Assembly (NCBI RefSeq): GCF_014638275.1
Contig: NZ_BMFJ01000002.1
Coordinates: forward strand, 62,001 to 126,000
Direction of reading: 5' to 3'
DNA length: 64,000 nt
DNA from: Primorskyibacter flagellatus
GTDB taxonomy: Bacteria; Pseudomonadota; Alphaproteobacteria; Rhodobacterales; Rhodobacteraceae
Shown: piece by piece, positions 36,119-62,828 of the stretch
Layout of the letters: each line of letters begins with the position of its first letter
Position numbering within the stretch: the first letter of the stretch is position 1
Notes under the pieces: model-generated
What the model saw: the letters and a program-made list of their open reading frames with translations, nothing else
Databases searched by the model: none
What the model was told of the DNA's origin: nothing
Position numbers and translations under genes: made by a program

Positions 36119-36313
36119 GGCGGGTCTCCTGTCGTTCCGGGCCGGGGGCGCGCGTAAGATATCCGACCGTTCCTGCAACGCCAGCCCCCGCCAGACAAGG
36201 GAGAAGCCGACGAAACCCCGCATTTCCCCGCCCGCGCGGCAAAATCGCGCGGAAGTCATCCAGGTCAACCGCCCCCGCTTGTCCCGGCAAGGGCGCGAAC
36301 ATATCATGAACAC

Positions 36314-37543
36314 ATGCCTCTGTCCCTGTCCGAAAAACTGGCGATCCTGTCCGACGCCGCCCGCTACGACGCCTCCTGTGCCTCCTCCGGCACGTCGCGC
36401 CGCGATTCCCGTTCCGGCGGGCTCGGCTCCACCGAGGGGTCCGGCATCTGCCATGCCTACGCGCCGGACGGGCGCTGCATATCGCTGCTCAAGATCCTGA
36501 TGACCAACTTCTGCATCTACGACTGCGCCTATTGCGTGAACCGCGTGTCATCGAACACCCCGCGCGCCCGGTTCACGCCCGAGGAGGTCGTGACGCTGAC
36601 GCTGGAATTCTACCGTCGCAACTATATCGAGGGGCTGTTCCTGTCTTCTGGCATCATCCGGTCTCCGGACGCGACGATGGAGGCGATGGTGCAGATCGCC
36701 CGGTCGCTGCGGGAGGAACACGGGTTCAAGGGGTACATCCACCTCAAGACCATTCCCGATGCCGCGCCCGAACTGATCGACGCCGCCGGGCTCTACGCCG
36801 ACCGGCTGTCGATCAACGTGGAGCTGCCGACCGAACAGGCGGTGAAGACCTACGCGCCGGAAAAGTCGCCCGAAACCATCCGGTCCGCCATGGCGCGCGT
36901 GAAGACGGCGCGCACCGCCGCGAAGGACCGCACCGCCACCGGAAAGCGCCCGCCGAAATTCGCCCCCGCCGGCCAGTCCACCCAGGTCATCGTCGGCGCG
37001 GACGGATCGACCGACGCGACGATCCTTGGCCAGTCGACGCAGCTCTACGGGGATTACCGCCTGCGCCGCGTCTACTATTCCGCCTTCTCGCCGATCCCCG
37101 AAAGCTCTGCCCTGCTTCCGTTGATCAAGCCGCCGCTGATCCGCGAGCACCGGCTGTATCAGGCCGACTGGCTGATGCGGTTCTACGGGTTCGACGCGGC
37201 AGAGATCACCTCTGCCCGGCCTGACGGCAACCTCGATCTCGACCTCGATCCGAAGCTCGCCTGGGCGCTGGCCAACCGGCACCTGTTTCCGGTGCAGGTG
37301 CAGACGGCGGAGAAACCGCTGCTGCTGCGCGTTCCCGGTTTCGGCACGAAGACCGTGCAGCGCATCCTCACCGCGCGCCGACACCGGACGCTTGCCTGGG
37401 ACGACCTGAAGCGGATCGGCGCGAATCTGAAATCCGCCGCCCCCTTCGTCACCCTGCGCCACTGGTCGCCGGGTGCGCTGACCGACAGCCTCGCCCTCCG
37501 CGCCCGCTTCGCCCCGCCGCCGGAACAGCTTTCGCTCTTCTGA
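36314..37543 (+). CDS. Putative DNA modification/repair radical SAM protein
   Basis: 409 residues. The radical SAM [4Fe-4S] ligands are C67, C71 and C74 (CIYDCAYC); additional cysteines C22, C46 and C55 precede them. The TIM-barrel follows (FLSSGIIRSPDATMEAM, IHLKTIPDA, RLSINVELPTEQ). A helix-hairpin-helix DNA-binding motif lies near 336-355 (LLRVPGFGTKTVQRIL). The last five residues are QLSLF, a canonical sliding-clamp-binding peptide. The family is found beside DUF4130/UDG proteins, as here (36-nt gap). The reaction is not known; a DNA substrate is suggested by the HhH, the clamp peptide and the partner. The start ATG 36314 has no strong Shine-Dalgarno. It is divergent from hss. Confidence 0.9.
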   Translation: MPLSLSEKLAILSDAARYDASCASSGTSRRDSRSGGLGSTEGSGICHAYAPDGRCISLLKILMTNFCIYDCAYCVNRVSSNTPRARFTPEEVVTLTLEFYRRNYIEGLFLSSGIIRSPDATMEAMVQIARSLREEHGFKGYIHLKTIPDAAPELIDAAGLYADRLSINVELPTEQAVKTYAPEKSPETIRSAMARVKTARTAAKDRTATGKRPPKFAPAGQSTQVIVGADGSTDATILGQSTQLYGDYRLRRVYYSAFSPIPESSALLPLIKPPLIREHRLYQADWLMRFYGFDAAEITSARPDGNLDLDLDPKLAWALANRHLFPVQVQTAEKPLLLRVPGFGTKTVQRILTARRHRTLAWDDLKRIGANLKSAAPFVTLRHWSPGALTDSLALRARFAPPPEQLSLF

Positions 37544-37565
37544 CTTCATCTTGCCCGAAATACTC
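37544..37565. repeat. Dispersed gene-end repeat (copy 2, short)
   Basis: cttcatcttgcccgaaatac directly after the radical SAM stop, matching the first half of the copy at 10049-10081. Confidence 0.5.
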
Positions 37566-37579
37566 AACCAAGACCCGCC

Positions 37580-39034
37580 ATGAAGACCGTCCGCCTGCCC
37601 CTGACCGGAACCGACACCGCCTGGCGGGAGGCCGCGCGCGCGCATGTTGCCGCCGGGACGCCGCCGGCGGACCTGCTCTGGACCCGCGGAGAGGCGCCGC
37701 AGTCCGACCTTTTCGCCGCCCCCGACATGGCCCCCGTGAGCGGCGCCGACATCACCGTGCCCAGGGCCTTCGTTGACCTTGCCCGCACGGTCTGCTGGCA
37801 TGCCGACCCGGAGCGCTTCGCCCGGCTCTACGCCTTCCTGTGGCGGCTGCGCGACCGCCCCGCCCTGATGCGCGACACCGCCGACCCGGACCTGACCCGC
37901 CTGCGGGGCATGGAAAAGAACGTGCGCCGCTGCGCCCACAAGATGAAGGCCTTCGTCCGGTTTCGCGACATCGCGCCAGGCGGAACGGGCCGCCGCCGCT
38001 TTGCCGCGTGGTTCGAACCCACCCATTTCACGCTGGAGCCGACCGCGCCCTTCTTTGCCCGCCGCTTTGCCGACATGGACTGGGTCATCGCCACGCCGGA
38101 CCTGACCGCCAGGCACGAGGGCGGCCGCATCACCTTCGCCCCCGGCCAGCCGAAACCGGACCTGCCCGAGGATGCCGCAGAGGGGCTGTGGGAGACCTAC
38201 TTCTGCAACATCTTCAACCCCGCGCGCGTGAAGGTGCAGGCGATGACGTCCGAGATGCCGCGCAAATACTGGAAGAACATGCCCGAGGCGAAGCATATCC
38301 CCGCCCTCATAGCCGGGGCGGAGGCCCGCGTGCGCGAGATGGCCGCCGCCGCCCCCGCGCTTGCCCCCGCCCATGCGGCGCGGGTGCTGGACCGGCTGCA
38401 TGGCCCGGACACGCTGGAAGACCTAAGCTTTGCCGCCCTGCGCGCGCGGGCGGAGGACGAGAGCCGGACCCTGCGCGACGGGTATGGTCGCATCGTTCTG
38501 GGCGAGGGCCCGGAGGATGCCCCACTGATGATCGTCGGCGAACAGCCCGGTGACGAGGAGGACCGGCAGGGCCGCCCCTTCGTCGGCCCCGCCGGCCAGC
38601 TGTTCGACCGGGTCGCGGAAGGCGCAGGGCTGGACCGGCGCGACGCCTACGTGACCAATGCGGTCAAGCAGTTCAGGTACCGGATGAAGGGCAAGCGGCG
38701 GCTGCACATGCCGCCCAACCGGACGGAGATCGAACATGGCAGATGGTGGCTGGAGACGGAGATCCGGCTGGTGACGCCCCGCCTGATCCTGGCCATGGGG
38801 GCCACGGCGGCGCAGGCCCTGACCGGCACGCGCGAAGGGCTTCTGAAGCGGCGCGGCCAGGTGGAGGACACGCCCTACGGGCCGGTCTTCATCACGGTGC
38901 ACCCGGCCTGGATCCTGCGGTTGCGGGACGCGGCGGAGCGGGAGGCGGGAGAGGCGACCCTTCGCGCGGACCTCTCGGCCGTCGCCCGGCTGCACGCGGC
39001 GGCCATCCAGCCGCCGCCGTCGCCGCGCCACTGA
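37580..39034 (+). CDS. DUF4130 plus UdgX-type uracil-DNA glycosylase fusion
   Basis: 484 residues. DUF4130 occupies about 65-250 (MEKNVRRCAHKMKAFVRFRD, WFEPTHFTLEPTAPFFARRF, WETYFCNIFNPARVKVQ). A family-4-like UDG domain occupies about 300-475. Motif A is GEQPGDEEDRQGRPFVGPAG (from 320). KRRLH at 372-376 is the UdgX hallmark loop, whose His forms a covalent bond with the sugar after uracil release. HPAWILR at 441-447 is motif 2. N-terminal QSDLF (41-45) in a flexible linker resembles a sliding-clamp motif. It should bind and cross-link uracil in DNA. The role of DUF4130 and of the radical SAM partner is not established. No obvious strong ribosome binding site; probably co-transcribed with the upstream gene. 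Confidence 0.9.
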   Translation: MKTVRLPLTGTDTAWREAARAHVAAGTPPADLLWTRGEAPQSDLFAAPDMAPVSGADITVPRAFVDLARTVCWHADPERFARLYAFLWRLRDRPALMRDTADPDLTRLRGMEKNVRRCAHKMKAFVRFRDIAPGGTGRRRFAAWFEPTHFTLEPTAPFFARRFADMDWVIATPDLTARHEGGRITFAPGQPKPDLPEDAAEGLWETYFCNIFNPARVKVQAMTSEMPRKYWKNMPEAKHIPALIAGAEARVREMAAAAPALAPAHAARVLDRLHGPDTLEDLSFAALRARAEDESRTLRDGYGRIVLGEGPEDAPLMIVGEQPGDEEDRQGRPFVGPAGQLFDRVAEGAGLDRRDAYVTNAVKQFRYRMKGKRRLHMPPNRTEIEHGRWWLETEIRLVTPRLILAMGATAAQALTGTREGLLKRRGQVEDTPYGPVFITVHPAWILRLRDAAEREAGEATLRADLSAVARLHAAAIQPPPSPRH

Positions 39035-39100
39035 TCCGATTGAACGGCGACGGCATTTGCCGATACGCTGGCCGGAGTTGTGAATTGGGACGAGTCGGGA

Positions 39101-39613
39101 ATGAAACGGGTCTATCTGGTTTTCTCCAAGGAATTCAGCGATGAGCTGGCCGACCGCCCCGGCCGATCGAAATTGGAGAAGGAACGCGCCGCAATTCCGC
39201 GCATGGCGATGGAGCGAATTGCACTGCGCGCGCAATCCGACCTGTATTACAGACCCGGAACCTCCCATCTGCGCGCGGACCTGCTGGAGGAGCCCGTTTC
39301 CACCAGGCAACTGTATCGCCCCGCCAGCCTGTCCGCCCTGCTGATGAGCGTCGACCGGGTTGTCAGGATGCCCCCGGCCAGCCGGTTTCATCGCCTGTCG
39401 CCCGCCGGCTACCTCGCGCAGTTCACCTTTCCGCGCGTCGGATGGTCGGTGCTGGCGGGATATGACGAACCGAAGGAAAAGCCGGTGCTGGTCTTTCTCG
39501 ACACCCATGTCACCGCGGGCATGGCGATGCAGACCGAAGCCGCGGCCCGGAGTCCTGTGGAGTTCGACCGCGCCTATGCCATTGCCCAGGCCATCGCCCG
39601 CCGCGTGCCTTGA
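39101..39613 (+). CDS. Hypothetical protein, first gene of an XRE cluster
   Basis: 170 residues, no recognised domain, no signal peptide or membrane helix. Mixed charged and hydrophobic composition (VYLVFSKEFSDEL at the N-terminus, VGWSVLAGYDEPKEKPVLVFLDTHVT near the C-terminus) suggests an alpha/beta cytoplasmic protein. ATG 39101 is chosen; a GTG at 39080 in frame would add seven residues, and neither has a convincing Shine-Dalgarno. It is followed after 55 nt by an XRE regulator and a small membrane protein, an arrangement like toxin-antitoxin or other addictive modules, but no toxin fold can be named. Confidence 0.6.
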   Translation: MKRVYLVFSKEFSDELADRPGRSKLEKERAAIPRMAMERIALRAQSDLYYRPGTSHLRADLLEEPVSTRQLYRPASLSALLMSVDRVVRMPPASRFHRLSPAGYLAQFTFPRVGWSVLAGYDEPKEKPVLVFLDTHVTAGMAMQTEAAARSPVEFDRAYAIAQAIARRVP

Positions 39614-39634
39614 CTTCCGCCCTCCGCCGCTCTA

Positions 39635-39658
39635 GGTGTTGTTGCAGAGACCAACACC
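39635..39658. promoter_or_regulatory. Inverted repeat before the XRE gene
   Basis: ggtgttg (39635-39641) and caacacc (39652-39658) are perfect inverted arms around a 10-nt centre, ending 10 nt before the XRE start. This is the right place for autoregulation by the encoded HTH protein. Confidence 0.5.
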
Positions 39659-39668
39659 GAGGTGGAAC

Positions 39669-40064
39669 ATGAGTGCCCCCGAAGCAAGCCCGCGCGAAGC
39701 CGGACCGAAGGCCGGTGCCAGCCCCCGGAAGGACCGGCGCAGGAACTGGACATCGCCGGAGCAGCAGGAACCGGCGGACCTGAAGCGCCACGCGGTCGAT
39801 GACCTGAGCCAGGACGCCCGCAAGGCCGTGCTGTCGATGGCCGGGAAGGAGATCGCGTCGCAGCTCGGATCGCGCATCCTGCTTGAGATGCTGGCGGAGT
39901 CGGGGAAATCCATGCGCGCGGTGGCCAAGGAGTCGGGCTTCGACGTGTCGGTTCTGTCCAACATCGCGAACGGCCGCCGGGCGAGCGGGCCGGACCTGTG
40001 GACGCTGGTGGCGCTGGCGGAATCCATGGGCCTTGACCTGCACCTGAGCTTCACCCGGCAATGA
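39669..40064 (+). CDS. XRE family helix-turn-helix protein
   Basis: 131 residues. The first 50 are polar and probably disordered. The HTH_3/XRE fold is at about 68-125 (LLEMLAESGKSMRAVAKESG, FDVSVLSNIANGRRASGPDL). It is a likely DNA-binding repressor or antitoxin-like component. ATG 39669 follows gaggtgg. Its TGA stop overlaps the next gene as ATGA. Confidence 0.8.
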   Translation: MSAPEASPREAGPKAGASPRKDRRRNWTSPEQQEPADLKRHAVDDLSQDARKAVLSMAGKEIASQLGSRILLEMLAESGKSMRAVAKESGFDVSVLSNIANGRRASGPDLWTLVALAESMGLDLHLSFTRQ

Positions 40065-61824: not shown

Positions 61825-62828
61825 CCCTGACCATCCACCGCACCGGCCCCGCCGCCGTGCAGGACTTGGGCCGCCCGCACCGCCTGGCCGAGGGCCTGTC
61901 GCGCGGGGGGGCCGCCGACCGTCTGGCGTTGCTGGAGGCCGCCGCCCTGCTTGGCCTGAAGACCCCCGTCGCGGGGATCGAGATGGCGTTGATGGGCTGC
62001 GAGGTCACGACCGACACCGCCACCCGCATCGCCCTGACCGGGGCCACGATGCAGGCGAGCCTCGTCGGTCAGCCGGTCGAATGGAACACCTGCCTGACCC
62101 TCGCCCCAGGTGAGGTGCTGAAGATCGGCGCTGCCCGCGCCGGGACCTACGGATACCTCGTCCCCGCAGGCGGCATCCAGACCACCCCCGTGATGGGCTC
62201 CGTCGCCGCGCACCTCACCGCCGGGATCGGTCGTGTTCTGGAACCGGGCGACAGGCTGCCGGCGGGAAAGGATCCGCATCCCGACGCCCCACCCATGGTG
62301 CTGAAGCCCGAGCCGCGCCTGACCGGCGGCGCGATCCGCCTGATGCCCGGCCCGCAGACCGGACTGTTCGATGACGACACACGCGCCCGCTTTTTCGCCA
62401 CCGCCTTCACCCGGTCGCGCACCGGCAACCGTCAGGGCGTCCGGCTCGATTTCGACGGCGCGCCCTTTGCGAGCGGGACCGGCGCGCTCGCGTCCGAGAT
62501 CATGCAGGCGGGCGACGTGCAGATGACCGGCGAGGGGATTCCCTACGTGCTGCTGTCGGAATGCCAGACCATGGGCGGCTACCCCCGCATCGGTACCGTG
62601 ATCCCGCAGGACCTGCCCCGCGTCGCCCAGGCCACGCCGGGCACCGCGCTGACCTTTACCGAGCTGACGGTGGAGGAGGCCGACGCGCTCTGGCGGCCCG
62701 AAGCGGACCTGCTTTCCACCCTGCGCCGCGCCGTCCAGCCGCTCAGGCGCGATCCCCATGACATCCCGGACCTGCTCTCCTATCAGCTGATCGGCGGCGT
62801 GATCCGGGGCGACGAAACGGAGGCCTGA
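61821..62828 (+). CDS. pxpC: 5-oxoprolinase subunit PxpC
   Basis: 335 residues, KipA/Ahs2 (biotin-dependent-carboxylase-like) family. TIHRTGPAAVQDLGRPHR at the N-terminus, SRGGAADRLALLEAAALLGL, then VQMTGEGIPYVLLSECQTMG and GYPRIGTVIPQDLPRVAQ. It partners PxpB in the ATP-dependent step. It overlaps pxpB and is followed directly by pxpA (TGA then ATG). Confidence 0.95.
   Translation: MTLTIHRTGPAAVQDLGRPHRLAEGLSRGGAADRLALLEAAALLGLKTPVAGIEMALMGCEVTTDTATRIALTGATMQASLVGQPVEWNTCLTLAPGEVLKIGAARAGTYGYLVPAGGIQTTPVMGSVAAHLTAGIGRVLEPGDRLPAGKDPHPDAPPMVLKPEPRLTGGAIRLMPGPQTGLFDDDTRARFFATAFTRSRTGNRQGVRLDFDGAPFASGTGALASEIMQAGDVQMTGEGIPYVLLSECQTMGGYPRIGTVIPQDLPRVAQATPGTALTFTELTVEEADALWRPEADLLSTLRRAVQPLRRDPHDIPDLLSYQLIGGVIRGDETEA

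Follow-up and report, generated by a model that had tools for sequence, protein, structure and literature searches.

In the genome of Primorskyibacter flagellatus, a 64,000-nucleotide stretch of contig NZ_BMFJ01000002.1 (forward strand, positions 62,001 to 126,000; hereafter the window) encodes a radical S-adenosylmethionine (SAM) protein of the TIGR03916 family and, beside it, a protein in which a DUF4130 domain is fused to a UdgX domain. We consider it likely that the radical SAM protein is a DNA-repair enzyme induced in the SOS response, with DUF4130 as its near-constant partner, and that it is delivered by the beta clamp; the clamp binding, the lesion and the chemistry are the parts that we infer. 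The beta clamp is the ring that keeps DNA polymerase on DNA, and proteins dock there by short peptides, with a consensus of the QLxLF or QLxLxL type (Ser at position 3, Phe at position 5). The radical SAM protein of the window ends in QLSLF, and its relatives keep a tail of this type almost regardless of what accompanies them.

Family membership of both proteins is clear. Against TIGR03916 (“putative DNA modification/repair radical SAM protein” in NCBIfam), which we take to be the COG4277 of the SOS literature, the radical SAM protein scored 571.7 bits at a curated cut-off of 343.5, and its partner scored 201.9 bits against TIGR03915 (DUF4130; cut-off 112.25) and 259.4 bits against TIGR03914 (UdgX; cut-off 189.95). 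A preliminary description of this DNA, made from its letters, had located the two open reading frames, the CIYDCAYC motif, the terminal QLSLF and the helix-hairpin-helix of the first protein, as well as the DUF4130-UdgX fusion with GEQPGD, KRRLH and QSDLF in the second, and all of them are present as described.

Relatives were gathered without reference to their tails. TIGR03916 was found over its cut-off in 25 of 385 genomes in a search of the class, 21 of 120 in the family and 84 of 398 in the phylum; at most 30 loci were fetched from each of these searches, 20 further places were added from the phylum search, and the best 80 of at least 580 named genome contigs, together with plasmid and phage records, completed the set. 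Weak matches aside, 178 full-score relatives were fetched, and 175 loci were used, which gave 172 unique tails (last 150 residues). Those left out were L023 (not recognised by the pattern of the script; it ends in QLALL), L026 (contig end), L191 (broken frame), the weak matches L027-L031 and L051, and L001 and L004, which are the window itself.

A clamp-type pentapeptide or hexapeptide occurs within the last 40 residues of all 172 unique relatives, with or without UdgX: 151 have the strict pentapeptide Q[LM]xL[FLIW], 7 a looser pentapeptide, 14 only the hexapeptide (QLALPL, QLSLGF or QMALAL, among others) and 0 neither form. Shuffled tails gave the strict form in 0.9% of cases and any form in 5.9%, so the conservation of QLSLF across homologues, which the preliminary description had called for, stands well above chance. 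As in the clamp consensus, position 3 of the pentapeptide is most often Ser (85 of 158) and position 5 most often Phe (93 of 158), and the Gln (Q405 in the window protein) is invariant in an alignment of 52 proteins. Outside Pseudomonadota, the tails read QLSLFDSA in Clostridia, QLKLF in Fusobacterium, QLSLW in Gemmatirosa and QLILEF in Phocaeicola, while a relative on a human-gut scaffold has QLSFF. The tail is kept whatever the partner: in 132/132 relatives with the fusion, in 39/39 with DUF4130 and no UdgX seen (including one case at a contig end) and in 1/1 without DUF4130. In the structure model of the window protein the tail is disordered, with a predicted local distance difference test score (pLDDT) below 50. 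On these grounds we describe it as a conserved clamp-type motif in a flexible segment, predicted to bind the clamp.

The genes around these loci provided a control. Among 912 neighbouring open reading frames (the longest non-overlapping ones of at least 200 amino acids, some of which are not genes), 8 have the strict motif at their end; seven of these are TIGR03916 proteins outside our list of members and the eighth, at locus L146, is a radical SAM protein of a different family, PA0069. None of the remaining 904 has a strict terminal motif.

This second family, which the preliminary description had overlooked, is also represented in the genome of the window. Its PA0069-family member (NF033668; G000 C1:1137663-1138706, L181) likewise terminates with QLSLF, and a LexA-like box lies upstream of its gene. 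Among 57 unique relatives from Pseudomonadota, 54 have the motif: 52 have the pentapeptide (40 in the strict form) and 2 the hexapeptide only, leaving 3 with neither. An alpha-type LexA-like box precedes the gene in 28 of 31 PA0069 loci, and an alpha- or gamma-type box was found in 22 of 27 further loci; among these 27, L240 is the same gene as L181. The family thus resembles the window protein in its LexA-type box and its clamp-type C-terminal tail, and differs from it everywhere else by BLASTP: the best similarity between the two lies in the tail (FAPPP..QLSLF, E 0.037), and the other pieces align at chance level. The two families, both radical SAM and both of SOS type, thus have this terminus in common, and beyond it they cannot be aligned by BLASTP. 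At L146 (350-2727), a PA0069 gene and a TIGR03916 gene stand head to head and may have a common promoter region.

The evidence for SOS control lies upstream of the radical SAM gene, where the preliminary description had missed both a sigma-70-like promoter and a LexA box that overlaps its -10 element. The whole window contains five LexA-type boxes, against 1.1 expected in shuffles (the other four at 1694, 6218, 29958 and 59800), so that a single site is weak evidence and the claim rests on conservation. An alpha-type box lies no more than 150 bases upstream in 141 of 145 alphaproteobacterial loci, in the form GAACN7GAAC in 131 cases (0.4 expected) and GTTCN7GTTC in 11 (0.2 expected); none was found within that distance at L006, L012, L048 and L088. 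The gamma-type box CTGTN8ACAG occurs in 17 of the 30 other loci (0.07 expected), and all 17 are Pseudomonadota other than Alphaproteobacteria. Within 250 bases of the gene, GAACN4GTTC occurs at two sites each in L175 (Clostridia) and L190 and at one in L173; to judge from these repeats, those of L175 and L190 are perhaps a third LexA-type box. The nucleotides TTG at -18 to -16 from the box recur in 81, 79 and 77 of 131 relatives, respectively, and in 56 of the 131 the box ends 2 bases ahead of the start codon. In the window the ATG at 36314 coincides with the predicted +1, and for this reason the transcript is probably leaderless, with its predicted start at or beside the ATG. The locus can accordingly be read as a putative SOS operon, on which LexA would act as the conserved box suggests.

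As for the partner, DUF4130 adjoins the radical SAM gene in the window and in 174 of the 175 relative loci. By hidden Markov models built in this analysis, the 175 divide into 135 loci with the DUF4130-UdgX fusion, 38 with DUF4130 alone, 1 at a contig end and 1, Gemmatirosa L177, at which no DUF4130 was found and the tail QLSLW is retained. In gene content, then, the constant core is radical SAM plus DUF4130, and UdgX is optional.

The UdgX domain of the window is a particular one. Its model matches the UdgX of Mycobacterium smegmatis (6ioa) with a TM-score of 0.82 by target length and 43% identity, and the two have GEQPG and KRRxH in common; motif A, the His of the R-loop, TNAV and motif B are all retained, as the preliminary description had noted for GEQPGD and KRRLH. 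The window domain differs in its fusion to DUF4130 and in the replacement, by other residues or a gap, of the two N-terminal Cys (C-x2-C), the His of VKH and the Cys of CRWWL, a loss that had escaped that description. We take these C, C, H and C positions to be the ligands of the UdgX 4Fe-4S cluster, an assignment that their joint loss suggests: among 134 aligned UdgX domains (L099 and L127, which have no GExPG, were left out), all four predicted ligands are present in 116 and none of the three Cys in 16, and the ligands changed 6 times or more along the tree (16/131 rows). Because the predicted ligands are lost, we call the domain a UdgX-like derivative, with its catalytic residues intact. 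The UdgX cluster and the cross-linking, nucleophilic His of the R-loop are described in PMC10359453.

These data bear on the model of the preliminary description, in which both proteins would be clamp-bound and the system would mark or process uracil at replication, with UdgX at its center. The intact catalytic residues and the conserved LF of the partner are in keeping with it, as is the place of QSDLF, its second clamp peptide, in a fairly low-confidence linker of the partner model (residues 41-50, mean pLDDT 67). However, among 101 partner proteins (the window and duplicates included; 99 are distinct), the linker keeps the L in 98 and the F in 94, whereas a Gln is aligned in only 9 and the pattern Q..L[FLWI] occurs in 11. 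With the Gln so rarely aligned, QSDLF is not a conserved clamp peptide, and that candidate was rejected as having no support above chance; the LF alone may still make a weak clamp contact. The uracil-centered reading is further weakened by the 38 of 175 loci with DUF4130 and no UdgX: 28 of these 38 genomes were searched, and UdgX over its cut-off was found elsewhere in 1, the weaker matches in 24 being probably other uracil-DNA glycosylases. The fusion state of UdgX, moreover, switched 13 times or more along the tree, while the radical SAM protein kept its tail. We therefore regard this model as rather unlikely, with the conserved tail of the radical SAM protein and the catalytic residues of UdgX as the parts of it that stand.

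A second alternative is that the tail docks on the DUF4130 partner instead of the clamp. The near-constant neighborhood of the two genes and the LF-containing linker would suit such a contact, and yet the tail switches between two forms of clamp peptide, at least 6 times between pentapeptide and hexapeptide on a FastTree tree made without the tail, a pattern easier to reconcile with a clamp peptide than with a fixed fold. The PA0069 proteins also have the same tail, and no DUF4130 relative was found at 58 of their loci, most of which reach just about 1.5 kb on each side; L177, as said, keeps its tail without a DUF4130 found. This docking seems to us rather improbable. We also give little chance to a DNA-modifying system in which the radical SAM protein would add a base mark at the fork or erase one: the NCBIfam name of the family allows for modification, and a tether to the clamp would suit replication-coupled marking, but two lineage-specific LexA-type boxes, and perhaps the third in L175 and L190, indicate a damage response. 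It is highly improbable that the hydrophobic C-terminus marks the enzyme for proteolysis once the SOS response is over, since, for all that the gene is of SOS type and the pentapeptide is exactly C-terminal in 132 of 172 relatives, the Gln is invariant and the motif is trailed by 1 to 34 extra residues in 26 of 160 proteins, a poor fit to a C-end degron.

In the SOS-repair reading that we prefer, DNA damage would take LexA off the box at 36297-36311 and release a transcript, probably leaderless, that encodes the radical SAM and DUF4130-UdgX proteins. The former would contact DNA through its helix-hairpin-helix, a region matched by a ComEA profile (E 5.2e-4, profile 323-368) and weakly by RuvA (E 0.017), and its flexible terminal QLSLF would dock it on the beta sliding clamp, so delivering it to sites of replication or repair. 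There, a 5′-deoxyadenosyl radical might act on a damaged base or an adduct that stands in the way of copying, either reversing or processing it, with DUF4130 probably serving in lesion recognition or in the completion of the reaction, and the fused UdgX as an optional add-on that would seize uracil or abasic sites.

Several observations weigh against this reading. The coding pattern Q-L-x-L-F-stop occurs 6 times in the genome of the window and 11 times in a reversed control, so the raw genome count is not above chance, but, in favor of the tail, 3 of the 6 sites end open reading frames judged to be genes, 2 of these 3 are radical SAM proteins, and the tail is found on 2 of the 13 radical SAM matches of this genome. 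The motif was not seen, by the pattern used, in DinB and ImuB of the same genome, so that neither serves as an in-genome positive control. The sample, with several phyla represented, is mostly alphaproteobacterial. Finally, a search of solved structures gave no credible relative of DUF4130, and spore photoproduct lyase was absent among the 50 structural matches listed for the radical SAM model.

Spore photoproduct lyase is, to our knowledge, the main known case of DNA repair by a radical SAM enzyme. We tried this identity for the window protein and rejected it: profile searches gave no match to the family of that lyase, and among the 50 structural matches listed the nearest to the model is HydE. 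A single-sequence search of the radical SAM protein against solved structures gave no match. The likeness to the lyase SplB is therefore one of kind, both being radical SAM proteins of DNA repair (putatively so here) in an SOS-linked context (PMC3765255, PMC8565304).

Already known are the gene set, the chemistry of UdgX and, for some phyla, the placing of these genes under SOS control. A COG1573-COG4277 operon has been placed in the SOS regulon of Bacteroidetes and, citing others, of Verrucomicrobia and Alphaproteobacteria; in PMC8565304 this pairing of uracil-DNA glycosylase and COG4277 genes, with LexA-type motifs as in the window, is interpreted as putative base excision repair, whereas we weigh the radical SAM-DUF4130 core as the constant part. 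The window pair agrees with the known TIGR03916-TIGR03915-TIGR03914 set in passing all cut-offs and, like 135 of the 175 loci, in having the fusion beside the radical SAM gene, and departs from it in its UdgX without the predicted Fe-S ligands. No description of the clamp tail, nor any link between a radical SAM protein and the sliding clamp, was found in our searches of the open-licence PMC literature, judged mainly by titles and abstract openings. If two radical SAM families of SOS type bear a clamp-type tail almost without exception, radical chemistry would be placed at the replisome, which suggests an unrecognised kind of repair at the copying machinery. Two widespread uncharacterised families would gain a testable job, and the function of TIGR03916 and DUF4130 would become approachable by experiment. 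Tentatively, and with less confidence than not, we would extend the idea to a class of SOS-induced, clamp-riding radical SAM enzymes, with at least two families (TIGR03916 and PA0069), that undo replication-blocking lesions at the fork.

Table 1. Features of the gene pair and its upstream region (window positions)
Feature	Position	Strand	Basis
Sigma-70-like promoter, TTGTCC-17-TATCAT	36279..36307	+	1 match vs 0.1 expected
LexA (SOS) box GAAC-N7-GAAC, GAACATATCATGAAC, overlapping the -10 element	36297..36311	+	Conserved in alphaproteobacterial loci
Radical SAM gene, TIGR03916	36314..37543	+	Open reading frame, 409 aa; profile match
Radical SAM cluster motif CIYDCAYC (CxxxCxxC; C67, C71, C74)	36512..36535	+	All three Cys invariant (alignment of 52 proteins)
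Helix-hairpin-helix (approximate limits, residues 332-378)	37307..37447	+	ComEA/RuvA profile match; helices in model
Terminal QLSLF of the disordered tail, predicted to bind the beta clamp	37526..37540	+	Conservation; pLDDT <50 at residues 406-409
DUF4130-UdgX fusion gene (TIGR03915 + TIGR03914)	37580..39034	+	Open reading frame, 484 aa; profile match
QSDLF in partner linker	37700..37714	+	LF kept, Q not; clamp role unsupported
DUF4130 domain (Pfam PF13566)	37808..38287	+	Profile match
UdgX domain (TIGR03914)	38297..38983	+	Profile match; retains the catalytic residues but not the predicted Fe-S ligands
UdgX motif A, GEQPGD	38537..38554	+	Alignment
UdgX R-loop, KRRLH (contains the cross-linking His)	38693..38707	+	Alignment; role of the His from PMC10359453

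Some further observations concern these proteins and their surroundings. Upstream of the radical SAM motif, C22, C46-H47 and C55 (window 36377-36478, residues 22-55) are near-invariant in the 52-protein alignment, in a stretch that lies in or beside a low-confidence part of the model; C22, C46 and C55 are a possible extra cluster or metal site. Relatives were present in 10 of 50,697 phage records, and two scans of viral contigs confirmed none. Eight of the ten are unannotated human-gut scaffolds and two are Acinetobacter records, of which L178, named as an Acinetobacter phage, has glyQ-glyS adjoining and looks chromosomal, so we make no claim of a phage-borne system. Elsewhere in the genome of the window (L182, region of G000 C1:1809346), a 228-amino-acid protein without an NCBIfam match ends in QLELF. 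On the 3′ side of the gene pair (window 39080-40064), an unknown open reading frame of 177 amino acids is followed by one of 142 amino acids in which an XRE-like helix-turn-helix can be recognized by eye.

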